Translations under genes and position numbers: made by a program
Shown: positions 2,733-63,321 of the stretch, one piece after another
Numbering within the stretch: position 1 is the stretch's first letter
How the letters are laid out: each line of letters begins with the position of its first letter
Origin: Branchiostoma floridae
Lineage: Eukaryota > Chordata > Leptocardii > Amphioxiformes > Branchiostomatidae
Direction of reading: 5' to 3'
NCBI RefSeq assembly: GCF_000003815.2
Contig: NC_049989.1
Location: 18,873,439-18,937,438 of the forward strand
Length of the DNA stretch: 64,000 bases
The notes under the pieces: model-generated
What the model was told of the DNA's origin: nothing
The model's database searches: none
What the model saw: only the letters and a program-made list of their open reading frames with translations

Positions 2733-3145
2733 AACTATCCTGTGATTGGCTGACTGAGGTAAGGTGCTTCGTTGTGATTGGCTGTGCCTACACAAAAATG
2801 TCCATTGACTGAGTGACTGGCCATTGTTGGGTGCTTCCATGTGATTGGCTGCACTTAAAAAAAATGTTCTGTGATTGGCTACTCTCTATAAACAATCATT
2901 CTGTGAAAGGTTGGCTGAAGTCATCAGCTTTTCTGTGATTGGTTAGTTGAAGTCACCAGCTGTTCTGTGATTGGTTGGCTGAAGTCGTCAGCTGCACTGT
3001 GGTTGGCTGAAGTCAACAGCTGTACTGTGATTTGCTACTCTCTAAACAATTGTTCTGTGACTGGCTGGCTGAAGTAATCAGCTGTTATGTGATTGGTTGG
3101 TTGAAGTTGCTGCTGTTCTGTGATTGGCTAGTTGATGTCAGCTGA
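2733..3145. repeat. Degenerate ~31-bp minisatellite overlapping the GTPase stop codon
   Basis: About 13 imperfect units carry the core CTGTGATTGGCT followed by GAAGTCATCAGCTG. They run from 2733 into the last coding codons of the GTPase gene. The final unit contains the reverse complement of the TAG stop at 3128-3130 and the codons just before it. Several units hold a CCAAT-box-like ATTGG, probably by sequence coincidence. The array appears to have grown from the exon's 3' end into the 3' UTR. Confidence 0.75.
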
Positions 3146-6100: not shown

Positions 6101-9100
6101 CCCACAAGTTTTTGTAGCACGACAGATTTTGAACCCAGGACCTCTAGTTTCTGGGCCCTACAGTTATGTCAGACGAGCCCACACTAAAAAATGTTGCTTC
6201 CTGATATACTTCTTCAAAATGTGAGAGAAGACTACTAACCCTAACGTTGAGCTGGGGCACATAGATAGTGGGCATGTCGAAGCCACACTTGTTCAGGCCT
6301 GGTCTCTTGCACAGTTCCTGGGTGATCTGCATCATCACCCTCTGTGGGAATACAGGCACAAAACATTGGTGAGAGACATCTACAAACAATTTGTACCAAG
6401 CATTAAAGAAAACCTGTACCCGTACCCTAACAAGTTAAAGCACTAGTGGATACAACTTTTTTCTAGACCAAAGGTAGTTTGATCCTGTCTCAAAAAATGA
6501 CAATTTCAATAATCTTGTGGTTGGAAATTGAAAAAAATATACTTGTTTAGAGATTCAAATGTAAAATTTTTTAATACGAAGTCTTAACATACAATTCATC
6601 ACTACTAGAAAAGACAGTTGGCTACAGTTACAACTTACAGGTCATCACCGATGCATTTTTGGTACAGGTACAGGAACACAGATGTTCAGGACTGGTCCTG
6701 ACCTATACCTTAACATTTCTACAGGTACAGGTAGCAGTAAACTTGATGTTCAGATCATGGCACAAGTACATGTACATGACTGTACAAAATGTATTAGGTT
6801 CACAACCCTACTGGGTATCCTGATGCAACACATCCACAGAAACATGGATTAGAGTTACATTTGACAAGCCTACCCACCTGTCTGTCGGTTTCGGACCCCG
6901 CCTCGTCGGCCTTGCTGAGGTAGAACTTGATTCTCTCCGAGTGCTTCTCGTTGAGCCTCTCCACGATGTTTAGTGTCCGCTTGCACAGCGCCTGACCCAT
7001 GGGGTCAAAGAACACGAAGATCAGGTCCGCCAAATCACCTGGGAAAGACAACATGTAAGGTTTAACTAAATAAGTTCCATTCATTAAAAATCTGGTCTTT
7101 CCTGAGAACATAACGATAGAAGCAATCTTTAAGTCCCACTACTAAAACTTACTGTAACTGTGAGCTCTTTGGTGGGACAAACTAGCAATTGGTCCTGACA
7201 CAAAACCAAAGTATGAGAAATCATATTTCCTTGCCAAACCTGAATAAGACCACACCAATTTAATTCTAAAGAATGAAATTTGAAAATCAACATTAAAAGA
7301 GAGTCTTAGGGGGAAATCTACATGTATGCCTTGCTATACACACAGTTTCTAGGGTTGAATACGGAGGGAAACAAGTTTTCATCTCAACATCTCATGTCCA
7401 AGAGCCAAGCGGATAAATTGGCCTTTGTAACACAAAAACTTTCCATTGCCTGCTTTATTGCAAGTCGTCAGAAATTTGGCCCCAACTTTGTCCAAACTTA
7501 CCTAGCCATAGGATTGCCTCGTCCACATCAAAGGGGTACTTCATGTCCCCGTCCACAAGCCCCGGTGTGTCGACAAACGTCACCAGGCTGAACTTAATTG
7601 TTTGGAGGTGGAGACTTCTGTGGCCAGGTACTCCATCACTCCTGTAGTACCACAAAGAAAACAAAGAGGGGGCAACTGAGACACGCTTTGTAAACAGGTA
7701 TGGCAAGTTTAGTTAGACTAAGTGTTAAGCTATCTTGATCCAAACTTAATTGTTTGGAGGTGGAGACTTCTGTGGCTAGGTACTCCATCACACCTGCAGT
7801 ACCACATAGAAAAAACAGAGGGGGCAACTGAGACACAGTTTGTGAACAGGTAAGGCAGTTTAAAATAAACGTTTTAGGTTAATCAAACTAAGTGTTAAGC
7901 TATCTTGATCCAAACTGAACTTTTTCTGTTTGGAGGTGGAGACTTCTGTTGCCAGGTACTCCATCAGTCCTGCAGTACCATGTAAGACCAATAGATGGGG
8001 CAACTGAGACACGCTTTCTTAACAGGTAAGGCAGGCCAAATGTAATGCACTATCTTGATATTGAGTAGAACTGCTTGTGTTTTTAGCCAAGTACACTGGG
8101 TCACCCCTACTCTTCTTGATCCTGATTTTTACATACAAAGGGTGTAATTCCTAAAGCTCACAAAATCTCTATATCTCCAATAGATCTGACTGATGATGTA
8201 AAATGTCTGTACATCTACAAATAAGGTCTGAAACACTAAGGAGTTAAATCAAGAACAGTTAAACATTATGTTAGAGACGTGATGGAATAAGCTGCACTGT
8301 GGTATTTTATGTCATACTGTACTGTACAATTCATATCTTTTCTTTAACCGGCTCTACTACAAAGTCTTTGTCTCACACATTAGACTTAAAGTTCCACGCT
8401 GAAAGATGCAGTATTCGAGGATAGTGCCCTGGAAGCACAGCTCTTCATCTGGCAGCTTTGATCAGGTAACCACAGAGCTACCGTTTGAAGAGCTACGCCT
8501 CTCAGGGTAGTCAGGCTTCCGTGCTGCGACGGTCAAGGAAATCTCGCTGCCGGATCACGGGGTTAAGGGTTTGAACCACATTCTGTCTATGGATGGTTTA
8601 CCTCCATTTAACAACTAACAAAAAATTGTCAATGTTCATTCAACACCACACTCGCCTAAGATACGTTGTTACAATTCATGTAGCGTACAACTACAAACGA
8701 CTGCCAACAAGCTTTTAATAAACCAATCTTGTACTACTTCTTATTTTCTGTAGTGCCTAGTGGAGACTTGAAATTACTCCCATCTGTATGTGTGAGCATG
8801 TGCAACATCCCCTTATTATACATGTATAGCCCAGCCACCAGGTTTGCAGGAATGCAGCAGCCTATTATAACCCGTCAAGCCACTTGTCCCACCTGGGGCT
8901 TGTATATATATATCTATATATAGCTATAGCACACTCCAACCAAGTCTGATGAACTCTTCAACACTAGGAAGAAAATGTTGTGTTTCCTGTTTCACTCCAT
9001 TCATTTTCTGAATATTTTCTTATCTATTCCAACATGCTAGAAACATTCCTTATATCAAATACATAATTTGTATCAGTTTCCAAACTGTTCCAATATACTT

Positions 9101-12100: not shown

Positions 12101-15100
12101 TATTATATGCAGCCTGTAGCCATAGGTACCCTATTTTTGAGTAGGCTGATTTACGTGCTCGAGGCATCTCCTTGAACACGGAACCCCGTTTTATGTCCCT
12201 TCTGAAAGACGAATTTGTGAAGTCTTGGTCAGGCTTCGATCTTCATGTCTACCTTGTCCCCCCAACGACCTGGAGGGCAAGGGACTAGGTAGGTAGGTAG
12301 GTAGGTCAGGCTACAGCATCCAGACTTCCTTATTGGTCCCCCATCTAAGTACTGTCCAGACTGAACGTTGCCTAACTTCCGGAGATCGAGGGGATTGGGC
12401 GCATCAACGCGCCACAAGGCCTGCGCTAATGAAAGATGAAAGCGACCCCCCACAATAAGGTCACTCCTCCACACTTTATAATGGTGAGTGACCCCTTTAA
12501 CAAGTTCCCTGACCCAGTTCATGATGGCAACACTTTAACCACCATCAATATCAATTCAGAGTCAGTAGAAAGAATCACAGCCAACGCTCTGTAAGACTAG
12601 TAAGAGTCTAATGCTTAAGATTCCAGGGACAGCAATTTTACTTTATCTCCAATAATTCGTCAGTTCCCTTTTTTTTTGAAGAAAATGATGATAGATCATT
12701 ATGAAAACAGAATCTGAAGGGAAATATTGGAACAAACGTAGAGGCTAGAATATAGTTTTCCTCCCAAACTTCTGTTTTCATGAAACATTGAAAGTTTTAC
12801 TGGATTTTTCCTTTAGAATGTTAACTCAAAGAGCAAAAAGAAATAAATTTCTTTTTTTCAAAATTACGCTACTATGCCAGTATCCTAAATAGTCTGTGAT
12901 AGTTTGTAAAACACACAAAACTAACGCCAATTTGGACATTTTCAACCTGAACTTGAAGAAATTTACATTATCCTGCAAAGCTGCAAACCTATTTACCTTT
13001 GCCAGAAGGTTATGTTTTGAGTATGTTTGTCTGTCTGCGTGTTAACAGCATTACTTTCAAGAGAAGTCTTGTTTTTATCAATTGAATGATTGCAGATGTT
13101 TTTTTTCGAACCCTGCTGACCAATTTTCCAAATGCCTTCTGCAGTCATCTCCCCCAATCCTGTCACAGTCATCTAACTGACGTGTCAACCAAAATATCAC
13201 TCTCAGTTGCCCTTTTCAAAACCTCTGATCCATTGTAATTTTGAAGACATCGCTCTAAAAATATCTCTTTCGCATTGAAGTAGAAATTCTGAAAAGGCCT
13301 TCTATACTATTCATGTATACAAATTTTCTGGAATGCAAGAATTGTGCTCAATGGAAAATGGATAAAAAGACTTGGATATTGATTTAAATCGTAAGAGGTC
13401 ATACTATCATTTCCTGGTAATATATTAGATGAAATTCAAATTACAATAATAGTATAACTTAAATACAGCTTTTTTTAATTGGCAAACACATAAATGTTTG
13501 TTAAATGGTTGTTTCCAAATAACATTTTTGCAAACTTATGGCTAGAGACTCTGGAAGTGTCAAGGTCTGGCTATTGCTATAGGCAAATATTGTCATTATG
13601 TAACGTTACTGGGTTTAGGGTAATGGCTTCATATTAAGATGTTGGACAATTCATCTACCACTGTATACGAAAAAGAAGTCAAATCCATTAATTAATTAGC
13701 TTAAGTAGAAGTACATAACTAATGTGTGAGTAGTACTATCCAGTCTTTGATTATACGCCTCTTTATTCATTATGGCTGGAGGATATGACATATTTCTCCC
13801 CCCTCCCCCCTGCATAATGGACTGTTCCACATAGCAACAGTGTGAGGACGGGTTTACGGAAAAGGCTGGGCTGTCTACCTGGGCTGTCTACCTGGGCTGT
13901 CTACCTTGGCTGGCTATCACGTCAGGCTACTTGGACCTACGAAAGCCCATTGGGACAAAAGCTGTTTTAGCAGTATGGGTTGTTTGTGCTCAATGAAGAA
14001 GCTGTGTGTGAAGGAACTGTATGTGAAGGAGCTGTGTTTGAAGGAGCGGTGTGTGAAGGGACTCTGTGTGAAGCAATTGTGTGTGTTACATAACCCAGAG
14101 GTTCTGGGTTCAAATCAGTTGATATGCCACTGTTAAGTATAGGCCGAGCAGCTAACTAGCTATTCACGGAGAGGACACAGTGAGCTCTCAACACGTTGGC
14201 TCACGCTCCAGAACTGACCACGGTGGGTCGGTCTCGTTTATTCGCGTAAGAGGATCTATAGTACAGACCAGATGGACCAGTGCGCCCCATGGTGACACCA
14301 CCGATCTTGCGCCCTTTGGAAGGGCTACTATCACGACTTATCGGGCTGATTGGATTAGTCTTAAGACTGCTGGCTAGTTGATCAAAGGCATCCGGGAGCC
14401 GTTCTTTAGTGGCTGTCAGGGTCCAGGCTTCTGCGCCATACATTAGGATCGACAATTGAATTGTGAAGAGCTTAAATAAGCGTTGCTAAATTGCAAGGTT
14501 CTGGAACAGCTGCCATTCGGTGCTAACTCGGGTGACCTCAGTACGACAGCAATTACCCCAGGTGTGGCCATATGACTTTAAGTTTTGAACCACTTACACA
14601 ATTGGAAGGAAGGACCCCTAGTCTTTTCCGTAAGTGTGGTGGGTTCTTTACCCTATCTGAGGGAGGGCCCTTACCGAAGCTAGGTTTCTCTACCCTAGTA
14701 AAGGGAGGAAAGTCGTGTTAAGAGCCCTTCCCAAGCGCACAAGATCGGTGGCATATCAATTTATTCCAACCCAGAACCCCTGGGTTTTGTAACATACACG
14801 GCTCCTTCAAACACAGCTCCTTCACGAACAGCTCCTCCACACACTGCCACTTCACACAGCTTATTCACATAATAACACACAGTTCCTTCACACACAGCTT
14901 CTTCATTGAGCACAAACAACCCATACTGCTAAAACAGCTTTTGTCCCAATGGGCTTTCGTAGGTCCAAGTAGCCTGACGTGATACCCAGCCCAGGTAGAC
15001 AGCCCAGGTAGACAGCCCAGGTAGACAGCCCAGCCTTTTCCGTAAACCCGTGTGAGGACTGCCCTGATTGCCCATGTGCATGTTAATTCAGTGATAAATC

Positions 15101-18100
15101 ATCCATGCCTCCCCCAACCCGTCATGTCATGCTGTCTGACACCCTCACATCCCTCTCAGGTGGATTCCATCAGAAACATGTTTTAACTTTAAGTGAGTTT
15201 ATCATTATGTATAGAAATATATTTGTAATGTATATAATTTTCGGTGTAATGTATCACACAATTCAAGGCTGCAAAGTTGAACAAATAAATCATTCTGAAA
15301 TTCAGGAAAAAAACCCAGAAACATTGGAAAATGAAATCTGCATCAAAATCATTATTTTTCTCTACCAACTATAAATTGACTATTGAGCTATTTTCAGGTT
15401 GTCATGATTATAATAAATGTTATATGTGTAACTTATAATCCCCCAAGACACTATTCATTTATCTACTAATTTAGATCTATCATCTCTTGTTGTCTGACAG
15501 TCACGCACCAATCTGAGGTTACATTCTACCAGACATCAAACCATTATTTGTTCCCTACAAGCTGTAAATTGAGCTGTTTTCTGGTGGTCATAATTATAAT
15601 AAACATTACGTGTAACTTATAATCCCCCAAGCCACCATTATGTCTTGTTGTCTGACAATTACCCATCAATCTGAGGTTATGTTCTATTAAAGGACAGACA
15701 CATAATAAAAAATATAAACCTGCAGCAGAGAAGTTTTCTTACATTAATTTAAAATTAAATGGAGGTTTATTTTTATCAATCTTTTACTTTCCAAGCAGTC
15801 ATGATCATTATATGTTAACTTGTAATCCATCCAGCCACCCTCTCTTGTCGAGTAATATATCATATATTATGACTGGGTAGATGCCATCAGACAAATTATA
15901 AAAAGAAAAAACCCTGCAGCAAAGTTACTCATTTTTCTATTGATTTTTTTCAACCAAATTTTCGGAAATCATTAGCAATTTACAATGTAGTGTGTACGTC
16001 ATAATCAGTTAAGCCACTATAATGTCTTGGAGACACCCATCCATCGATCTAAGACATAGAAGAAGAAAATGTTCAGCAAATTAGATTTTACCTTTCCGAC
16101 TTTTGCCCTGCACATAACCTACATCACAGATCAAACTTTCATGTTGTCATAAGTCAATGGTGAGTCACAAGTGCAGCTAAACTTTGTTTTGAAGTTTTCT
16201 CACAACTGCTTTAAGCATTGTCAAAGTTACGCCAAAAATAGTTACTCAAGCAACTGGATATGGTTTTGAAACGGTCAGACGTTTCGGAAAGAATCCACTT
16301 TCCTTCGTCAGTGACACTGAAGTGATCTGCAAGAAACAGGTCTTTTATACTCTAACTATGAATGAAGACAATTTCAGATGTCCAATAGGAAAGGTTGTAA
16401 GACAATTCAGACTGAAGACAATTAGGATTCCAAAGAAAACAAAGCTAAGCCAAAGTCAAGCTGAAGACAATTTGGATTTCAAAGGACATCAAGGCTAAGA
16501 CACAGTTAATGCAAATGAGTCAATTAGCTCCTGTTGTTTTAGTTACAGGAGCTAAAAGTTTTGTTGGCGGGGGGGGGGGGGGGAGTGCTATGTCCCAAGT
16601 GCCGGAAAGTTCCATACGTAGCCCCCCTTTTCTGTTGAGTGTGGGATTGTATATTCTCTCATATATGGCCTCTCTAACTCCCCGTTCAAACCAGCGGGCT
16701 TCGCGGTCTAGGATGTCGGTAGATTGGAGGTTGAAGGAATGTCCTTGGTTGTGTTGTAGGTGGTTGAAAATAGCAGAAGAGTTGCCGTTGGCCTTCGGTT
16801 TGCAATGTTCTTGGTATCTTGCTTTTAGTGGACGACTAGTCTCACCAATGTATGTGTTGTTACAGTTGGGTTCCTCGCATTTGAGTCTGTAGATTACATT
16901 GGCCTTAGTACCTTTCTGTGGTTTGTCTTTTGGATGTACCAGTTTGTGTCGGAGGGTTGAGTGAGGTTTGAAGTTAGTGGCGATGTTGAAGTTTTGGAAG
17001 ATCCGTCTGAGTTTTTCCGAAACTCCTTGGACATAGGGGATGGTAATGTTGGCTTTCTTTCTGTCGGTCAATGGTTTGCACTTGGCTGTTTTCTTTGAGT
17101 GGTCCGAGGGTTTGAGGGCTTTGTTGAAGGTCCAGTTTTGGTAGCCACATTTGTTCAATGCACTTCGGAGGTGTTTGTGTTCCTCTGTTTTGGCTTTGCC
17201 AGAGGAAACAATGCTGTCTGCCCGGTGATACAAGGTTTTAATCACTGCCAGTTTGTGTTCCAAAGGGTGGTGAGAGTCAAAGGCCAGATATTGGTCAGTG
17301 TGCGTCGGTTTCCTGTACACTAAACTTTTGTAACTAAAACAACAGGAGCTAATTGACTCATTTGCATTAACTGTGTCTTAGCCTTGATATCCTTTGAAAT
17401 CCAAATTGTCTTCAGCTTGACTTTGGCTTAGCTTTGTTTTCTTTGGAATCCAAATTGTCTTCAGTCTGAATTGTCTTACAACCTTTCCTATTGGACATCT
17501 GAAATTGTCTTCATTCATAGTTAGAGTATAAAAGACCTGTTTCTTGCAGATCACTTCAGTGTCACTGACGAAGGAAAGTGGATTCTTTCCGAAACGTCTG
17601 ACCGTTTCAAAACCATATCCAGTTGCTTGAGTAACTATTTTTGGCGTATCTTATTACCTGGATGTCTAACCTACATCGACGCCATTGTCAAAGTTTTTTT
17701 TAGCTGATCAACTTTTTTTCTGACTCTGTGAAAGTATTATACAATTACAAGCAGTTATAATACACAAACAAAGGCATGACATACAGTTTGTTTACTAATG
17801 TCTTAGAATATTCCAAGGTCAAAGAAGACATGAAAGAGCAAAAATGAAAAATCTATTGTTTGGTACGTTATGTTCTGTGCATTAAGTCATTTGTTAAGCC
17901 TTCCTGACTAACTTTTTTTGGTCAAACTTAATTTTATTTACACACTTGCATCAGTTTTTGGGTTCCAAGAGAACATCATCCATAAAATCAAATCAACATG
18001 GCCTTCTGGATCACATACAGCAAATGGGAATAATTTAGAACTCTACATGTAGTGGGAAAAATTGTTATGATGGGCTTTTATAACTGACCATCCACTGGAA

Positions 18101-44475: not shown

Positions 44476-45639
44476 AACCTGAAAGTACAATAGTCCATTG
44501 CACACAAATAACAAATTTATCAAATGTTGTCTATGTGTGAAGCCCCAAGGAAGTCCTGTCTGTCTTTACAATCAAAGGAATCTTAATTGGATACTCCCCA
44601 TGGGTTCCGATCAATCGTCTTGTCAAGTATGACAATGGACGTTTATCAAATGTTGTCCATGTTCAAGTTTTGTTTCGAGACTTCAGACGGAGCGAAACTA
44701 CTAGTGGTACATGTATTGGTTATCCAAAGACTAAAAACGTTTTCTGTCAGTGCATTGGAAATCTCATTAAGGTAGAATGTGCAAAACTCCATGTGTACCT
44801 CCATTGGGTACTCGTTTGGGTACATTAGCTTTGAAACCCCCGCAAATTTGTAACATGAACATTTGTAGAAAATGCTGAGGTCTTACCAGGTGTGTCCAGA
44901 ACTTTGCTTAAATTTTATTAAAAGACTAACACCTGTTACTCCCAATCCATCGGAAATGGGTCACGAAAGGTGAAAATAGTCATTGATATTAATTATAGCT
45001 GCTGTCACACGGTAACGCCCATGCCCTTTGGCAATACATTTTACAAGACAATACATGACTATTGTACCAAACATGTTTTTCTCTGCCCGGTGCACTGAAA
45101 AACATTTTTGGTGGTCATCTTTTTCCTTACCATAATTGTAACGATTGAGGTAAAATCAATCCAAACTGAATTGAGTTAATTGTGTGTCCAACGCGGTGTT
45201 AATTGGCGATCTCAAAGAAATGATAACGAAAATTCTTGATAACTGTAGGGAAGGCCACAGCAAGTAAATTTTATGGATGACATCCTATGCAGACTGCAAA
45301 AATAATGAGATATGGTGAACAAAAACAAGATGGGTAAAAAAAAATGGCTAAATTTTCCAAATGGACATCATAAACGTTGTAAAAAGAATTGAAGTGAGAA
45401 AACATCGTGGCGCTGACAACAAATCACCCATTCCTGTAAATTGAACAAGAAGTGAACTAAGTGTAGTAAAAGCGACACTAATGTGGTAGACTGGTGTCAC
45501 TTACCAGTATGTTGGCAACTACGCTCATGACTTCCAAAGTGTTGCCACTTTTGCAACAATCCATAGGCAACTAGTTTCATTTCTGCAACTACAGTCTTGG
45601 CTACCCCACTAGTGTCACTTCACTAGAATACAACACAGC

Positions 45640-47372
45640 ATAAATAAAGTGCTATGTCCCAAGTGCCGGAAAGTTCCATACGTAGCCCCCCTTTTCTGTT
45701 GAGGGTGGGATTATATATTCTCTCATATATGGCCTCTCTAACTCCCCGTTCAAACCAGCGGGCTTCACGGTCTAGGATGTCGGTAGATTGGAGGTTGAAG
45801 GAATGTCCTTGGTTGTGTTCTAGGTGGTTGAAAATAGCAGAAGAGTAGCCGTTAGCCTTCGGTTTGCAATGTTCTTGGTATCTTGCTTTTAGTGGACGGC
45901 TAGTCTCACCAATGTATGTGTTGTTACAGTTGGGTTCCTCGCATTTGAGTCTGTAGATTACATTGGCCTTAGTACCTTTCTGTGGTTTGTCTTTTGGATG
46001 TACCAGTTTGTGTCGGAGGGTTGAGTGAGGTTTGAAGTTAGTGGCGATGTTGAAGTTTTGGAAGATCCGTCTGAGTTTTTCCGAAACTCCTTGGACATAG
46101 GGCATGGTAATCACTGCCAGTTTGTGTTCCAAAGGGTGGTGAGAGTCAAAGGCCAGATATTGGTCAGTGTGCGTCGGTTTCCTGTACACTTCGAACTGAA
46201 GGCTGCCGTCCTTCTCTATGATAGTTTTGGTATCTAGGAAGGGGAGCATGTTGTCATGACTTGACTCCTGTGTGAACTTGATGTTCTTATCTACTTGGTT
46301 GATGTGGTCAAAGAACTCATCAGCTACTCTCTGTTTTAGCTTGCAATAAGTGTCATCTACGTAGCGGAACCAGTTGAGTGGGGGAGTGTCCTTGAAAGTA
46401 CTGATAGCCTTCACTTCAAACTTTTCCATGTAGAGGTTTACAACAATGGGCGACACTGGTGATCCCATAGCACAGTCGTGCAGTTGTTGGTAGAACTGTC
46501 CTTTGAAAGAGAAATACGTACACCCTAGGCAAAGGTCTAACAGTTTGCACAGTTGGTCTGGAGATAGCTTGGTTCTGTCTGTTAGTGTGTTGTCAGCCTC
46601 CAGGGCTTCCTTGACTACCGAGACTGCGTCCTTAGGAGGTATGCAAGTGAAAAGCGAACAGACATCGTAAGAAGTGATGATTTCATCTTCTTCTACCCGG
46701 AGATCTTTGATTTTGTCAACGAAGTCTGCACTATTCTGAACGTGATGTTGAGACTTCCCCACTAAAGGTCCCAGGATCTTAGCTAGAAATTTTGATAACT
46801 CGTACGTGACAGAACCTATGCTGGACACAATGGGGCGTAGGGGGACATCCTGTTTGTGGATTTTGGGAAGGCCGTAGAAGGTTGGGGGTTATTCCGAAGT
46901 GGGGTAGAGTTTTAGATAGGTGGCACGGTCAATCTTTTTTTCCTTGTCTTCCAATTCCTTGAGAGCCGTGATGATTTTCCCTTTAAATTGGGAGGTGGGG
47001 TCCTACTTTTAGCTCCTGTAGCTAGAACAACAGGAGCTAATTGACTCATTTGCATTAACTGTGTCTTAGCCTTGCTATCCTTTGAAATCCAAATTGTCTT
47101 CAGCTTGACTTTGGCTTAGCTTTGTTTTCTTTGGAATCCAAATTGTCTTCAGTCTGAATTGTCTTACAACCTTTCCTATTGGACATCTGAAATTGTCTTC
47201 ATTCATAGTTAGAGTATAAAAGACCTGTTTCTTCCAGATCTCTTCAGTGTCACTGACGAAGGATAGTGGATTCTATCCGAAACGTCTGACAATTTCGAAA
47301 CCATATCCAGTTGCTTGAGTAATAATTTTTGGCGTATCTTATTACCTGGATGTCTAACCTACATCGACGTAT
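45640..47372 (-). mobile_element. Penelope-like element, copy 2 (RT plus GIY-YIG, defective)
   Basis: The main ORF spans 45623-46828 with the frame extending upstream to about 47000. It carries FYGLPKIHK and PLRPIVSSIGS, TSYDVCSLFTCIP, CAMGSPVSPIVVNLYME and FRYVDDTYC (RT motifs including the YVDD catalytic pair). The thumb and a GIY-YIG endonuclease (CNNTYIGETSRPLKARYQEH) follow. Defects: a TAA just before PPTFYGLP, an in-frame loss of about 66 residues after HKLAVI relative to copy 1, and 5' truncation. A terminal repeat with a hammerhead-like motif lies at 47015-47372. As written it is not an intact element. Confidence 0.92.
47249..47290 (+). ncRNA. Hammerhead-ribozyme-like motif with compensatory stem II change
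   Basis: Same architecture as 17561-17602, but stem II is GGATAG/CTATCC instead of GGAAAG/CTTTCC. Both partners of one pair changed (A-U to U-A). The loop TGGATT, core CTGACGA, GAAA, ACGT, cleavage GTC and stem I GTCA/TGAC are unchanged. Confidence 0.75.
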
Positions 47373-53794: not shown

Positions 53795-56700
53795 ATGGCG
53801 GCGGCGGAGCTGCAGTGGATGCCGGACTCCCTCTACAATTCCGCCATCACCGCCGTCGTCGACAACTATTCCCGCACCAGAAAGGACGTCAGGTCCCTAC
53901 CAGATAACATACAGTTCGATATTTATTACAAGGTGCGTATATTCCGTGCGCAAGGTCGTTTTTTGGCGGGAGATCGCTGTGGGAATTTTCCGACCCCCGG
54001 GTCTTTTCTGGATCGCTACAAAGTGTCAATAATATGGTTTCCGGCGGTCGTATTAAAACCTAGGCCGTTTCGTTAACTGCCACACCCCTACGATTCATTC
54101 CCAAATCTCCTGAAGTCTTCTTGTAAACCCTGTATTAATATGGTAATTAGGAGATCAACAGAATTTGGCAGGTTGAACTGAGGTGGGAGAAACTCTTCTA
54201 AAATTTGGTTGATGTGACAGCTCGGAAAATTACGTGACAAAAAATGTACCAGACTTGGAAAGTATCACTGAAAACGGGAACAAATCTTAGACTGCACACA
54301 CAAACCAACAAGATTATAATACATGAAATTGTTGACAATGTTTTGAAAATTAGTATAGCTGACTAGACTCTTACGTCACTGTTGTCATCATCATAATATA
54401 CAAGACATTCCACCAAAATGTCTGGCTCGATCGAAAATTCAATTTGTTACTCCCCTCCCTCCCATTCCTTCACTGTAAGCTCAACAAGTGTCAAAATATC
54501 GTGAGCATATTTGAACAGTTGTATGAAATAAATTGCACTGAATTTACAATTGATTTTTTTGGGGAACTTTCTGAAATTATGTACAAAATTCTTAGCACAT
54601 TGATTTCTGTCGTGTATTGTTTTAAGTTACTACGTGATAACAGGCTTGAAGACCAGAATTCTACATTGTAATGCATTATTACAATACACAATAAAACTAC
54701 ATAAAAGTTTGATACGGTACCTTGATTAAAAATAATTACCTCCTGTGGTCAATGTAACCATGGGTGGTGCCCTAGAAAAGTAAGGCACGATCTAGACACG
54801 GTTTTTCCCGATATCGCCGCATCGGCGAGCAGACGATCTCTCGCCGACAGCTTTTTTTCAGCATCTTGATGGAACTGCAATATCGCCATAAAGATATCGG
54901 CAGAATTTCTCCCGAAAGGTCCGGAGCATTCGCCCGATAGCTTAGCTGGGGTTCCTGATAGCTTAGCAGGGGTCCCAGACAGCTTCCGTGCACGTGTAGA
55001 TGTGTCCCGACTTCGGGAGGGCACATTAGCATACAACGTGGGCTCATTAGGTTATATAGCTATTTATGACTACAAGCGCCACGGGTGTCCCGCAGCCAAC
55101 ATTCCAGATCCCTCCCGACACATCCACAGATATCGGCAAAAACTGTGTATAGATTGGGCCTTAGAAGCATCACCACATGTGGCACCAATCCTGTCTATAG
55201 TGACCACCTGTCTACATAGACCAGATTTCATTGGTCCCCTGTCAGTGGTCTTGGGCAGTTTGGTTTTACATAAAGAGCACGTAAAACAGCCTCATTCCTA
55301 AAACAATGGGTACTTACTGGCTGCAAATGATACACCAGATCAAGGAGCTTATATTCTCAGAGCTTATATTCTCAATATAAGCTCCTTGACCAGATATATT
55401 ATAGTTCAGCCTCTGCAGGGATCTCCCCAGATATGCTCTGACTGCAAGGTATTTTCTGAATAAAGTTTCAAAGTTTCTTGTCTTCGCTGCTGCACAGGAT
55501 GCAGAGTTTAATAGCAAATGCATGTGAAGGATGTGATTGTCACGACAGGAAAAACTGGCAGATCTAGGTCAGGGGTCAACCAAGATGATCTAGCTGGAGT
55601 CCAGCCTTGGGAGGGGACTAAAGGGACCAAGGCTGGATTCCAGGCTAAGATGGTCCTCAGTGCCGGAACAGTAGCCTAACTAACTAGTTCTGCTACTCTC
55701 CAAGCAGATGTTGGAATGGAAGAATGTGTTATGTTTTCTTACAGCCCAACATCCTAACACATGAATACTCACCCAACCGCAGTGTGGCAGATCTGTCAGA
55801 GAAACCTGTCATATTGTTATATTACTTACAGTCTTCTGCCTTAATACATGAGTATTAAAAAAGATGCTTAATACATGAAAAGGCAGTTCAGAAGTAAACT
55901 TATTAGTCAAATGGTCCACATTACCAGTCAGATCTGAGATTGGAAAAACAGAACACTAGTATTAGTAACTGCCTAGTAAACAGATACTTACATGACATAC
56001 ATACATACATAACCTTTATTTTGACTTGGATGTTAGGTTAGTTGGCCTCAAAGAAGCTGTATTGGACTACCTTTACATTTCTTATTTTACTCACTGTACA
56101 TAATTGTGTGTTCCAGTCAATCAGGTTTAGCCTGGGTACCATCTGATTTCTACCAGGGGTCCTTCCAGAATTTTTAAGGGTAGTGAGTGTAAGGAGCCCC
56201 TGTAGAAATTGGATGGTACCCAGGCTAAATCAGGTTGTGTCTGTTTCTCTCTCAGCTGTACCAGCAGGGCAGACTATGTCAGCTGGGGTCGGAGTTCTGT
56301 GAGCTGGCCGTCTTCTCCAAGGTTGTACGGGCCAATGATAAACGGTCAGTGGTTTTACAGTAACATGAGTATCTGTAGTTCAAGTAGCCTGGGTACCATC
56401 CGGATAGTTGTCTGCTCCGACGTTATTACACACTCAGGACCAAATATTGGACGAGGGCACTGATTGGTTCCTATGCATGAGCGAATTAAGGAATGAGTAC
56501 AAACGCTCATTTGAACAGGCATTCCTGAACACTTGAAACGCCTTCCGTGTGCTTGTGGGAAGCCTTTTGTCATTGAACGAGTGCTCTAGAACCCATTCCT
56601 TACATCTGCTGCACTATATTTCCGCTTTTATGTCATTATTACATATTTTGAGCAATTGAAAATTGCACTAAAACAAGCCGCATCATTTCTGGCTGGATCA

Positions 56701-59700
56701 AGGCCTAATTTTTTTTTTTTTTTTTTTTGCGGCTTGTTTCTGTGCTGTTTTCAATCGCTCAAAATATTGAATAATGACTTAAATGTGGAAATATAGTGCA
56801 GTAGATCATACAGATTGCCTCATGCAGAACATTTCCACTTTCAACGCACTGATATTGCTTAGGTTGCCTTTAAAAAGCATTTTTATTTTCTTTTTTGTTT
56901 GGATTTTTGGGACGGATGGGCTGAAATTTTTTCCCGTCCAAACAAGCAAATTTCCGTCTCAGGACGGAAGTACGGGCCCTTGAGATAGCCCTTAGTCTGT
57001 TAATATTCTTTCTATAATTCTAATTTTAATTATAATTTCAATTTTAATGTTTCTCCAGCCACCTGCTACACCACTGTTTCCAGGCCCTGATGGACCACGG
57101 AGTGAAGGTGTCCACCTGTCTGTCTGATACCTTCAGCCGCCAGTGTTCCTACATACAGGAGTCAGAGGTGTCCGTCAGAGACAAGGCCTTAACACTAGGA
57201 CTGGCACTAGGTAAGGTGTCCCTGTCCTCTTCTGTTATAAACACTATACAACACCTCATGGTGTAAGGTCTGACAGTGTTCCTACATACAGGACTCTGAG
57301 GTGTCCGTCAGAGACAAGGCCTTAACACTAGGACTGGCACTAGGTAAGGTGTCCCTGTCCTCTTCTGTTATATCTGTATCACATCACCTCATGGTGTAAG
57401 GTCTGACAGTGTTCCTACATCAGGAGTTGGAGGTGTCAGTCAGAGACAAGGCCTTAACACTAGGACTGGCACTAGGTAAGGTGTCCCTGTCCTCTTCTGT
57501 TATAAACACTATACAACACCTCATGGTGTAAGGTCTGACAGTGTTCCTACATACAGGAGTCAGAGGTGTCCGTCAGAGACAAGGCCTTAACACTAGGACT
57601 GGCACTAGGTAAGGTGTCCCTGTCCTCTTCTGTTATAAACACTATACACCACCTCATGGTGTAAGGTCTGACAGTGTTCCTACATACAGGAGTCAGGTGT
57701 CTGTCAGAGACAAGGCCTTAACACTAGGACTGGCACTAGGTAAGGTGTCCCTGTCCTCTTCTGTTATAAACCAACACACCACCTCATGGTGTAAGGTCTG
57801 ACAGTGTTCCTACATCAGGAGTCAGAGGTGTCTGTCAGAGACAAGGCCTTAACACTAGGACTGGCACTAGGTAAGGTGTCCCTGTCCTCTTCTGTTATAA
57901 ACACTATACACCACCTCATGGTGTAAGGTCTGACAGTGTTCCTACATCAGGAGTTGGAGGTGTCAGTCAGAGACAAGGCCTTAACACTAGGACTGGCACT
58001 AGGTAAGGTGTCCCTGTTCTCTTCTGTTATAAACACTATACACCACCTCATGGTGTAAGGTCTGACAGTGTTCCTACATACAGGAGTCAGGTGTCAGTCA
58101 GAGACAAGGCCTTAACACTAGGACTGGCACTAGGTAAGGTGTCCCTGTCCTCTTCTGTTATAAACACTATACACCACCTCATGGTGTAAGGTCTGACAGT
58201 GTTCCTACATACAGGAGTCGAAGGTGTCTGTCAGAGACAAGGCCTTAACACTAGGACTGGCACTAGGTAAGGTGTCCCTGTCCTCTTCTGTTATAAACAC
58301 TATACAACACCTCATGGTGTAAGGTCTGACAGTGTTCCTACATCAGGAGTCAGAGGTGTCTGTCAGAGACAAGGCCTTAACACTAGGACTGGCACTAGGT
58401 AAGGTGTCCCTGTCCTCTTCTGTTATAAACACTATACACCACCTCATGGTGTAAGGTCTGACAGTGTTCCTACATACAGGAGTCAGGTGTCTGTCAGAGA
58501 CAAGGCCTTAACACTAGGACTGGCACTAGGTAAGGTGTCCCTGTCCTCTTCTGTTATAAACCAACACACCACCTCATGGTGTAAGGTCTGACAGTGTTCC
58601 TACATACAGGAGTCAGGTGTCCGTCAGAGACAAGGCCTTAACGCTAGGACTGGCACTAGGTAAGGTGTCCCTGTCCTCTTCTGTTATATCTGTATCACAT
58701 CACCTCATGGTGTAAGGTCTAACAGTGTTCCTACATACAGGACTCTGAGGTGTCCGTCAGAGACAAGGCCTTAACACTAGGACTGGCACTAGGTAAGGTG
58801 TCCCTGTCCTCTTCTGTTATAAACACTATATACCACCTCATGGTGTAAGGTCTGACAGTGTTCCTACATACAGGAGTCAGAGGTGTCCGTCAGAGACAAG
58901 GCCTTAACACTAGGACTGGCACTAGGTAAGGTGTCCCTGTCTTCTGTTATATCTGTATCACATCACCTCATGGTGTAAGGTCTAACAGTGTTCCTACATA
59001 CAGGACTCTGAGGTGTCCGTCAGAGACAAGGCCTTAACACTAGGACTGGCACTAGGTAAGGTGTCCCTGTCCTCTTCTGTTATAAACACTATATACCACC
59101 TCATGGTGTAAGGTCTGACAGTGTTCCTACATACAGGAGTCAGAGGTGTCCGTCAGAGACAAGGCCTTAACACTAGGACTGGCACTAGGTAAGGTGTCCC
59201 TGTCTTCTGTTATCTGTATCACATCACCTCATGGTGTAAGGTCTGACAGTGTTCCTACATACAGGACTCTGAGGTGTCTGTCAGAGACAAGGCCTTAACA
59301 CTAGGACTGGCACTAGGTAAGGTGTCCCTGTCCTCTTCTGTTATAAACACTATACATCACCTCATGGTGTAAGGTCTGACAGTGTTCCTACACACAGGAG
59401 TCAGAGGTGTCCGTCAGAGACAAGGCCTTAACACTAGGACTGGCACTAGGTAAGGTGTCCCTGTTCTCTTCTGTTATAAACCAACACACCACCTCATGGT
59501 GTAAGGTCTGACAGTGTTCCTACATCAGGAGTCGGAGGTGTCCGTCAGAGACAAGGCCTTAACACTAGGACTGGCACTAGGTAAGGTGTCCCTGTCCTCT
59601 TCTGTTATAAACCAATACACTACCTCATGGCACAACAGCAGACAGTTTTCAAATATCCAGAGACGACGCCTTACAGATAGAACAGCCTAACTGTACCTTG

Positions 59701-62700
59701 GTTTGTTATGTTTGCCTTCACTGAAGGGAAATATATTGTTTTTGCTCAGTTTCCTCTAGCAGGACAACGCTTGAGGGGCTGGTCACCTTATAATCTGAAA
59801 TATGTTTGAGTAAACAGTGGTTTGTTATGCTAGACCATGTGAAGGAAAAATTATGTTTGCTTGCAAATGCTCCCTTGTAATTTTTATCTTTATTGTTTAG
59901 AACCTTCTGTCAGTTGGTAACTTATAGCATATTGAACGACCATTCGAACCTAACCTTTGCACATCTAGCTCTACTTACTGTGTAAAGCTATCTTGATGGT
60001 ACCTAGATGACAGTCTTACCTTTGTTTGTTTGTTTGTTGTGTAGGATCGTTTATGTCGGAGGCAGGATGGTATGCAGAAGGAGAGAAGATTTTCCTGGCC
60101 TGTCTGGAGCTGTGTGAACTGGTGGAGGACGTGTCCCACTGGCTCAGGGGCCTGGAGTTCTGTACAAGGTGGGTAGGGGGCATTGTGACACTGGCTCAGG
60201 GGCCTGGAGTTCTGTACAAGGTGGGTAGGGGGCATTGTGACACTGGCTCAGGGGCCTGGAGTTCTGTTCAAGGTGGGTAGGGGGCGTCGTCCCACTGGCT
60301 CACAGGGCTGGAGTTCTGTACAAGGTGGGTAGGGGGCGTTGTGACACTGCCACAGGAGGCTGGAGTTCTGTACAAGGTGGGTAGGGGGTGTTGTCCCACT
60401 GGCTCAGGGGGCTGGAGTTCTGTACAAGGTGGGTAGGGGGCATTGTGACACTGGCTCAGGGGCCTGGAGTTCTGTACAAGGTGGGTAGGGGGCGTTGTGA
60501 CACTGGCGCAGGGGGCTGGAGTTCTGTACAAGGTGGGTAGGGGGCATTGTGACACTGGCTCAGGGGCCTGGAGTTCTATACAAGGTGGGTAGGGGACATA
60601 GTGACATTGTCGGGGAGCTGGAGTTCTGTACAAGATGGGTAGGTGGCGTTGTGATACTGGCTAGGGGCTGGAGTTCTGTACAAGGTGGGTAGGGGGCGTT
60701 GTGACACTGGCTCAGGGGGCTGGAGTTCTTTACAAGTTAGGATCATGGATGGGATACTAGTACTTGATGACAAGAAGCCAAACTTGACCAGTGTTTCATG
60801 AATATATACATATGGCCTCCTTCCGTCAATGCTGACCATGGTAAAATCCTAATTGATATCAGCCCTACAGCGTTGACTGTGGCTAAGCAGTCCTATACAA
60901 CAATGACTGAGTTCTTTACACAGGATCCGCTTTTCTTCTGCCATGCGCATCAGTCTGGTTTCTCCTGATTTTAGCTACATGAATAAACTGTGTTTTAACC
61001 AGTTATATGTTTCTACCCCCCCAGATTGTTACACGTGCGAAATGCCAACTGTAAATACAACCTTGGGGAGGACACCTACCAGAAAGCGCTCAGCTACGTG
61101 ACCAAGCTGCAGCGGCTGGGACACAGCGTGAACTTCGCCCTGCTGTATAGCGAGTACAGCGCTCTGATGTTCGCCAAGAGTCAGTACGACGAGGCCTACA
61201 GGTGGAGCGTGAAGGCACTACAGGAGATCCGACAAAACTTACCCATGAAGGTATTTTTCATTCGTTTTTCTTCTAAATGAGGTTGCAAAATGCAAGATGT
61301 AGAGGCCACTCCTGGGCACCTACGCTAGCACTCAGGACTGTAAGTTACAGTGTAACAGCATCTCTTTTTCCTGCGTCGGAAACATCATGACCGAGACAGG
61401 GTCATCGTGTTTATATAATGTATTAACAACTTTTCTATGTGTTTGTCACCAAAGTTCATCTGTGTTACTTTGTTTGTTTGAGTCTTAATTTATTTGTTTA
61501 TGAAAAACTCAAATTGGCTTGCTGGCTGCTGCCATAACAAAGGACGTACAGGACCGACAAAATACAGCAAAGACACAGAATGTGATGTACAAATGACGAA
61601 CATATATGGGCTTCATATCAACGTATATTTGGTACATTACACAGCATAGAGATGGATTTAACCTTAATAAATTTAGAGTTGACTCTTCAAACGTTTTTCT
61701 TTGTCTTTTTTTGTGTTAGAACAAAGTTGAACACTTCTCTTTAAGCGTAGATTTCAATGTTTGTGTCTGTCACAGAGTTTAATTTTCTCTTGTAAAACTG
61801 TTACCTCAACTCATTTTTCCAGTTTTTCCCACTATTTCCTCCCTTAATGGTGCTCTTGTTTCTGTTCCCAGGTTGTTGTGGATGTCATCAGACAAGCCTC
61901 AAAGGTGAGTGGTTGTGATACTGATGATCATTTTAGAGTTAGGCAAATTGTCAGTTGGTCTAGTAGTTAGGCATTTTGTACTGTTGCATGCTATTACCCT
62001 TGCTGAAAAATATTATGTAGCTTGTGTTTGTATGTGTTCTGTTTGCGGTTGGACAGCATAACTTGAAAAAAACTACGGATCGCCTGTCATGATATTTGGT
62101 CTGTGAGAACGTCTTGACCACTTAATTGTACACTATTAGAGACTAGAAGATGTTCTATGGCTGTTCGGAAACAGATTCTCACTCTGACCTGTTGTTTTCA
62201 GGCGTGTGTTGTAAAGAGAAAGTTCCACCAGGCAGAGTTGCTGGTGAAGCATGCTGTATATGTGGCCAGGTCAGTACATACTTTCTAAGTCATACATTTT
62301 GTATTAATCTAAGTTCTGTAGAAAAATTCATATTCATAATGCAACTAGACAAACAATCGATCATAAAACATATCTGCTCTTTTATCTCCACTATAACAGA
62401 AAAGCGAGGGGAAGTTGAATTTATCCAGCAATAGTCTCATTTTGTATCTGTAAACTGTATCTTTTCAGCATGTCTTGTTGTGACCTGTACTTAGTCCGGT
62501 GTGGCAAAAATGTGCAATAAAGGTCTTCATTCATTCATTCATTAATTTACCTAATATCAGCAATAACATTCATTCATTCATTTAAAGCTAAAAGCAAAAA
62601 GCACATTTATTTGTATATTGATTTCATCATAGAAACAAACACAATCATAGTCTGCCAACTCATTTTGAAGGGAGACTTGTGCCACCAACACAACTACATA

Positions 62701-63321
62701 AATGATGGTAGCAGGCATAGAAACATTAAGAAAACGGAGTGTTTTTTAGTCACTAATGACTTACTGTAACCATATTCTACTGATATAACTAAAGAGGTCC
62801 TCTGTAGTATGGAAAATTAGGTACTTGCCCATTTCAGCAATTTACCATGAAGATCAGGATCTATTCTGCGATTCTGTTTTTTTTGTTGGTATTATCCACT
62901 TTGATAGCTAAGTGCAATGGCTGAGAGGGTTCGCCTTGCTTTTGGTAGGTCGTGAGTTCGATCCCTGACCGAGTCATACTAAAGACTCTAAAAAATGGTA
63001 CATGCTGCTTTCTCTGCTTAGCACTCAGCACTAATGAGGAAGAGTATGGAAGTTAAACACACATCACTATCAGCGTACTAGCCCCTTGCTGTAGTGGCTT
63101 GCACAAATATGTTGCCCAAGGGCTACAGAAATGTTACAGATGTATGGGCACCTTTAACTTTTAACTTTGAAAGCATTTTAAATAATTGCTGTGTGTTTCT
63201 CTCTCCATTGCACAGGGAGCACTTTGGACCCAAACACCCCAAGTACTCCGACACACTGCTGGACTATGGCTTCTACCTTCTCAATGTGGACAACATCTGT
63301 CAGTCAGTCCATGTGTACCAG
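53795..63321 (+). CDS. APPBP2: APPBP2 (amyloid protein-binding protein 2), N-terminal 312 aa, runs off window
   Basis: Exons seen: 53795-53932, 56256-56344, 57059-57210, 60045-60168, 61025-61250, 61872-61904, 62202-62269, 63216-63321. All have GT/AG borders and phases agree. The start is MAAAELQWMPDSLYN. Segments such as RSLPDNIQFDIYYKLYQQGR, HLLHHCFQALMDHGVKV, LLHVRNANCKYNLGEDTY and HPKYSDTLLDYGFYLLNVDN match the vertebrate protein closely (about 585 aa), so roughly the C-terminal half is missing beyond 64000. The family is a TPR-type adaptor that acts as a CUL2 substrate receptor (C-degron recognition) and was first described binding APP's tail near microtubules. Exons 3 and 4 each have their donor end embedded in a minisatellite. 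Confidence 0.95.
54770..55270. mobile_element. Unclassified repeat cluster in APPBP2 intron 1
   Basis: Local repeats (GATAGCTTAGCTGGGGTTCC / GATAGCTTAGCAGGGGTCCC), CGATATCGCCGCATCGGCGA, and a segment with ACCACCTGTCTACATAGACC related to the 30479-30656 MITE. Ends not resolved. Confidence 0.45.
56131..56224. mobile_element. Small hairpin MITE, AGCCTGGGTACCATC ends
   Basis: AGCCTGGGTACCATCTGATT ... GATGGTACCCAGGCT form inverted ends around about 60 bases. The same ends are seen at 56387 and 34866. It lies just before APPBP2 exon 2. Confidence 0.65.
56387..56610. mobile_element. MITE, 'TACCATCC' family, copy B
   Basis: GTAGCCTGGGTACCATCCGG starts it. GAGCGAATTAAGGAATGAGT and AACCCATTCCTTACAT are the inner arms. 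Related to 34484-34866. APPBP2 intron 2. Confidence 0.6.
56607..56804. repeat. Long hairpin around a poly-T tract
   Basis: Arms CTGCTGCACTATATTTCCGC and complement (ending at 56804) pair over about 80 bases, with AAGCCGCA / TGCGGCTT inside and about 19 T at the loop side (56709-56728). Confidence 0.7.
57141..59630 (+). repeat. ~131-bp minisatellite: 19 copies of APPBP2 exon 3 donor end
   Basis: Counting the unit core GGCACTAGGTAAGGTG gives 19 occurrences from 57203 to about 59570, a mean spacing near 131 bp. Each unit has CAGTGTTCCTACATACAG (acceptor-like), 49-52 bases of exon 3 coding sequence, the genuine donor G|GTAAGG and an intronic spacer. Unit 1 is the true exon end. Spacers come in at least three types (AAACACTATACACC, ATCTGTATCACATC, AAACCAACACACC). 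Divergence between units is only a few percent, so the array is young or homogenised. Confidence 0.95.
60139..60737 (+). repeat. ~52-bp minisatellite: 12 copies of APPBP2 exon 4 donor end
   Basis: The unit is GGCTCAGGGGCCTGGAGTTC + TGTACAAG|GTGGGTAGGGG + CATTGTGACACT. Unit 1 is the real end of exon 4 (donor after 60168). The remaining 11 lie in intron 4 with scattered changes, the last ones decayed (CAAGATGG, CAAGTTAG). The long reverse-strand frames here (rich in Pro/Thr/Ser/Leu) are an artefact of the repeat. Confidence 0.93.
62905..63062 (+). mobile_element. tRNA-derived SINE, second family, copy 3
   Basis: CAATGGCTGAGAGGGTTCG (A-box area), TCGTGAGTTCGATCCCTGAC (B box), GAGTCATACTAAAGACT and AAAATGGTACATGCTGCTTT match the copies at 35783 and 37095. 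APPBP2 intron 7. Confidence 0.78.

Follow-up and report, generated by a model that had tools for sequence, protein, structure and literature searches.

The end of exon 3 in the APPBP2 gene of Branchiostoma floridae, together with its genuine donor splice site and the start of intron 3, is present in 19 near-identical tandem units. We regard this array (array 3) as a mirage minisatellite, an example, both large and multiple, of a phenomenon already described in amphioxus and not a new kind of system. Our preferred reading, to which we give a probability of roughly 85%, is that splicing takes place at the first donor (donor 1), as predicted, and that the array is tolerated intron DNA. The window, meaning the whole stretch of DNA analysed, covers 64,000 nucleotides (G000:C11:18873439-18937438); Table 1 lists the features in it and at other loci.

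Table 1. Exons, duplicated borders and candidate repeats, numbered within the window unless a locus or contig handle is given.
Feature	Position	Strand	Details
APPBP2 exon 1	53795..53932	+	Start codon; exon model, protein alignment
APPBP2 exon 2	56256..56344	+	Exon model, protein alignment
APPBP2 exon 3	57059..57210	+	152 nt, end phase 1, donor 1 TAG/GTAAGG; exon model, protein alignment
APPBP2 exon 4	60045..60168	+	124 nt, donor 1 AAG/GTGGGT at end; exon model, protein alignment
APPBP2 exon 5	61025..61250	+	Exon model, protein alignment
APPBP2 exon 6	61872..61904	+	Exon model, protein alignment
APPBP2 exon 7	62202..62269	+	Exon model, protein alignment
APPBP2 exon 8	63216..63321	+	Gene runs on past window; exon model, protein alignment
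Exon 3 donor-side mirage (array 3)	57141..59630	+	19 units; unit 1 is exon 3 end and intron 3 start
Exon 4 donor-side mirage (array 4)	60137..60736	+	TRF; 12 units of 50-52 bp, last partial (32 bp)
Acceptor-side mirage, APPBP2 exon encoding LILEEIAIDCHNKELE	L012:4111-4604		Downstream of window; 4 acceptor copies (1 real, 3 decoys)
Acceptor-side mirage, last APPBP2 exon	L012:7138-7445		Downstream of window; 153-bp duplication, 2 copies
Acceptor-side mirage (VTFVDTPGLVDGDMKYPFDVDEAILWL), exon 7502-7641 of GTPase-like gene	7502..8034	-	Three acceptor copies
Donor-side array, TBC-domain gene	L074:426-1654		12 units of ~104 bp; GT in 12/12
Helicase_C pair	G000:C17:15003978-15004424		Same strand, ~315 bp apart
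Helicase_C pair	G000:C8:10981213-10982399		Same strand, 1010 bp apart

Structure of the array at the exon 3 border

The eight exons in the window join in frame into a product of 312 amino acids, which aligns without a gap with residues 1-312 of human APPBP2 (PDB 8jaq chain A, Amyloid protein-binding protein 2; E 1e-151), in agreement with the gene name given in the initial annotation. This alignment was obtained with donor 1 at both exons 3 and 4; it establishes that exon 3 has its conserved end at donor 1 and excludes an extra exon from the conserved protein; compared with the human protein, the window exons show no gain of residues in the conserved part. Exon 3 is flanked by introns of 714 and 2834 nt and exon 4 by introns of 2834 and 856 nt, and subtraction of the extra units would leave introns 3 and 4 with 477 and 308 nt, respectively.

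Tandem Repeats Finder (TRF) describes array 3 with a period of 133, 18.9 copies and a score of 4328, and cutting it at CAGTGTTCC yields 19 head-to-tail units, 18 of them 128-133 bp long and the last 119 bp, so the roughly 19 units first proposed are borne out by both routes. Each unit holds 68-70 exon-derived bases, ending in TAG/GTAAGG (the slash marks the exon end), and 58-63 (about 62) intron-derived bases. The initial annotation had counted 49-52 coding bases per unit, a figure that needs correcting because the 50-52 bases it reflects are only those past an internal CAG. Its view that the array expands the genuine donor border of exon 3, with unit 1 belonging to the true exon, agrees with our model: exon 3 has its true end in unit 1, copies 2-19 lie entirely inside intron 3, at 86-99% identity to unit 1 (alignment columns 1-121), and the donor is intact in 19/19 units. 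When unit 1 was searched against its own assembly (513.4 Mb), with very common words passed over, there were 19 matches, all within array 3.

The existence of array 3 is hardly in doubt, but its true copy number could be smaller, with the array being in part a product of the assembler. Sanger reads are too short to span 2.5 kb. If the assembly is the B. floridae assembly of PMC7269912, which is described there as built from Sanger shotgun reads and chromatin contacts with two divergent haplotypes merged, the number of units is uncertain, and one amphioxus mirage is recorded in PMC3087553 as aberrantly assembled. On the other hand, 16 of the 19 units are distinct in sequence, ~500 bp further on there is a second array that differs in sequence, and similar arrays occur at other loci; we consider such inflation unlikely, though worth reckoning with.

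Predicted consequences of using decoy splice sites

The initial annotation held that the cell has to pass over 18 decoys, and here we agree: their donors are all intact, and use of any of donors 2-19 is computed to give a stop at residue 144 (18/18), with exon 3 growing to 285 nt at donor 2 and to 2522 nt at donor 19. It also held that each unit looks like a complete micro-exon, and that inclusion of one extra copy of 52 nt would shift the frame and reach a TGA in exon 4 after 25 codons. Computed for micro-exons included singly, the frameshift and stop are found in 18/18 cases, but the putative length is 52 nt in 14/18 and 50 nt in 4/18, and the stop falls at 70 nt of exon 4 (about 23 codons) in 10/18, almost at once in 4/18 and after ~10 codons in the four 50-nt cases.

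The micro-exon reading is weak on the acceptor side. The putative acceptor is copied coding sequence, and in unit 1 its CAG sits inside exon 3. In units 2-19 a CTGAC or CTAAC motif, which we take to be branch-like from the general consensus, lies upstream of the acceptor-like CAG. With acceptor strength judged by pyrimidine fraction at -20..-4, the decoy acceptors of units 2-19 reach 0.53-0.59 (18/18), as against 0.71-0.82 for the real acceptors of the APPBP2 exons in the window (7/7).

Poison exons are exons that trigger nonsense-mediated decay, and the likeness to array 3 is that inclusion of a micro-exon would bring a premature stop. One might accordingly imagine, as the initial annotation did, an off-switch in which units or later donors are used in some tissues, yielding frameshifted and degraded transcripts and less APPBP2. 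The stops produced by every single micro-exon and every later donor would fit such a switch, as would the intact donors and the branch-like motifs. But the 3' splice site of the decoys is poor in pyrimidine content throughout, four of the 18 putative micro-exons differ in length from the rest, and their inclusion is, unlike that of known poison exons, hypothetical. The mirages treated in PMC3087553 and PMC3902484 are moreover reported there not to disturb the mRNA. Together with the divergence of decoys described below, these points leave the switch without support here, and we think it very unlikely.

Tolerance of the array, our preferred reading, would come about as follows. It began with a tandem duplication, itself directly visible, of a segment running from the last part of exon 3 into intron 3. 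Because exon 3 lies between long introns, it would be recognised across itself, and under such exon definition the donor nearest to the exon's own acceptor is favoured, which is why we predict the choice of donor 1. The micro-exons would be expected to fail for want of a good pyrimidine tract at the would-be acceptor, and from these two predictions it follows that the array would be tolerated intron DNA. Each added unit would then merely lengthen the intron, and donor 1 would need no special device.

Published experiments bear on this prediction. According to PMC9225289, exon definition gives the advantage to whichever splice site is nearest on the other side of the exon, and five minigenes tested in human cells, each with a pair of identical strong donors and introns of 365 nt, used the upstream donor exclusively. 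In the genome-wide set of the same source, the upstream donor had the advantage in only about 60% of pairs of near-equal strength, and without matching for strength the downstream donors were ahead. Larger exons were skipped when donors were weakened. For acceptors under exon definition, it describes the upstream preference as merely reduced, so that acceptor arrays fit our reading less well than donor arrays and provide the better test. That the proximity experiments were done in human cells counts against their transfer to amphioxus APPBP2.

Unit turnover and sequence variation

The units of array 3 combine 11 types of exon-side variant with 11 types of intron-side variant in mixed, mosaic fashion, and three pairs of units are exactly identical (u5 and u11, u6 and u10, u13 and u15). 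From the mosaics and identical units we infer exchange between units, and the array would have grown through unequal exchange and conversion; the units are thus homogenised, as in concerted evolution. The exclusion of boundary units from homogenisation, a reported but not defining trait of the BflGb6 mirage, is not seen in array 3: u1 and u19 differ from the other units by 6.4 and 8.1 on average, and the mean over all units is 8.7. Both outer ends of the array carry CAGT, with CGC/CAGTGTT on the exon side and GA/CAGTTTT in the intron past the last unit, and the founding duplication may therefore have used short homology.

If decoy units were under selection for splicing, one might expect their exon-derived parts to be the more conserved. 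When two decoys from each of four other arrays were aligned locally, 19/231 sites differed in exon-derived and 25/258 in intron-derived sequence, which indicates that these decoys diverge like intron and argues against the poison-exon switch. Array 3 is left as an exception: its per-site variability is 0.028 in the exon part and 0.080 in the intron part, compared with 0.148 and 0.117 in array 4 and 0.015 and 0.018 in the TBC array. The quieter exon part of array 3 would suit a switch and counts against tolerance, but array 4 and the TBC array lack it.

Two apparent signs of function were set aside. A pooled count over six arrays gave 54/397 variable columns in exon parts and 119/371 in intron parts (P ~1e-9), as if decoy exon parts were under selection, but the difference disappeared on local realignment; the pooled count misleads because fixed-length cutting of the acceptor units had misaligned their outer intron edges. 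Conservation centred on the donor was the other: in arrays 3 and 4 the donor sits in a quiet stretch, but a share of 0.015 to 0.36 of all circular windows in these arrays is just as quiet, and array 3 has no unusually long quiet gap (P 0.70 for its longest). Variation in the TBC array, read from the alignment, falls directly at the donor.

Other duplicated borders in APPBP2

Array 4, missed by the initial annotation, retains the donor GT in 10/12 units, two having lost it, and its sequence is other than that of array 3. At its 11 later donor positions, 9 of which are still GT, use would bring stops at residues 194-227 in 11/11. Two further mirages lie downstream of the window on the acceptor side. 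The exon encoding LILEEIAIDCHNKELE has acceptor copies with first exon bases at L012:4111, 4266, 4418 and 4549, all of which retain AG (4/4), and either of the two nearest decoys would give a stop; TRF made no report on this array, whose copies have diverged. At the last APPBP2 exon the decoy acceptor reads CTG, not CAG, and so has lost its AG. The former mirage is old and diverged, the latter young.

In all, a border is duplicated in 4 of the 13 APPBP2 exons examined, two on the donor and two on the acceptor side; among these 13, one acceptor side reads N and two downstream exons have approximate edges. Part of the gene is N, and the examination covered the remainder. One rule, that the exon-proximal copy wins, would fit all four arrays, the rest being tolerated minisatellite turnover.

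APPBP2 thus provides, in one gene, natural arrays of 19 near-identical donors and up to four acceptors, which makes exon definition directly testable, as it predicts use of the exon-proximal copy at donors and acceptors alike, even where 18 matching copies compete with it.

Relation to known amphioxus mirages and intron gain

The original paper on amphioxus Adh mirages reportedly appeared in Nucleic Acids Research in 2002. Our literature search on mirages, minisatellites, amphioxus and Branchiostoma showed no title on APPBP2, and for APPBP2 together with amphioxus a single paper was listed, which concerns eel tbx4. The known mirages of Adh3, the globins and troponin C resemble array 3 in that near-identical tandem units span an exon-intron border; they share with the APPBP2 arrays the retention of splice signals in most units, occurrence on the donor or acceptor side, and concerted evolution. 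Two globin genes, BflGb6 and BflGb9, carry mirages according to PMC3087553, the former with units of 150-160 bp that number 6 in one haplotype and 3 in another; the paper cites Adh3, states that either exon boundary can carry a mirage and takes RT-PCR to suggest that splicing is regular. Troponin C is added in PMC3902484, where PGBD5 is compared to mirages. With 19 units array 3 is larger than the two BflGb6 haplotypes of PMC3087553, and APPBP2 is unlike the published mirages in carrying them at four borders of one gene, on donor and acceptor sides.

It has also been proposed for amphioxus globins that such repeats accompany intron gain, a presumed gained intron there containing degenerate repeats (PMC3087553), and by analogy an APPBP2 unit could be on its way to becoming an exon, or a stretch of the array could turn into an intron. 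Intron gain by tandem duplication with splice signals is known elsewhere, in ATP2A1 and a potato RdRp gene according to PMC4974935, and the likeness to APPBP2 lies in just that. But the APPBP2 unit spans an existing border, the protein shows no new intron or exon and gains no residue in its conserved part within the window, single micro-exons are out of frame, and their acceptors are weak; we think this reading very unlikely.

Mirage borders elsewhere in the genome

Self-alignment found duplicated borders in 2 of 60 sampled exons (95% interval 0.4-11.5%) from loci of two family searches, with 30 of the 142 rows for myosin and 30 of the 134 for kinesin, a sample that includes clustered paralogues and genes with a whole domain in a single exon. 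Both are kinesin exons, one duplicated on the donor side (L064) and one on the acceptor side (L070). This suggests that mirage borders are not rare in the B. floridae genome, and they are a warning to gene annotators and assemblers alike.

APPBP2 may be a mirage hotspot, but the evidence is only suggestive: its 4/13 exceeds the sampled 2/60 (Fisher P 0.008; 0.03 without the index array) in a post hoc comparison of non-independent exons. We speculate, as a decided long shot, that the arrays of such a hotspot could be leaky, with some transcripts taking decoy donors or micro-exons and being destroyed, so that the dose of APPBP2 would be set by array length. Such an array, variable in length between alleles and perhaps between cells, would act through splicing as a length-coded tuner of expression.

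Family searches judged by eye added further cases. For the TBC family (41 rows) a single cluster of 11 rows stood out and was confirmed as the donor-side array in Table 1; the array is followed at L074 by an open frame that looks reverse-transcriptase-like by eye. The UCH family (62 rows) showed no tandem partial matches, and Helicase_C (112 rows) showed two same-strand pairs of near-equal partial matches, possibly duplicated exon pieces.

Within the window, the acceptor-side mirage at 7502-8034 belongs to a gene that we take to be GTPase-like from its G-domain motifs, for which Pfam, NCBIfam and PDB gave no match. Its acceptor copies have first exon bases at 7641, 7793 and 7969, and the putative coding status of the exon is based on its own and the neighbouring open frame. 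Other repeats and open frames were noted in passing. A long minus-strand open frame at 45623-46888 appears, by eye, reverse transcriptase-like with a GIY-YIG-like end, and 49-bp repeats near 16398, 17370 and 47058 may, again judged by eye, be a mobile-element family. Inverted pairs of short arrays of 13-bp and 15-bp units are mirrored ~1 kb apart at 13866-15098, and a 32-bp array of 7.4 units at 2899-3127 adjoins a possible minus-strand exon, with no overlap seen between the two.
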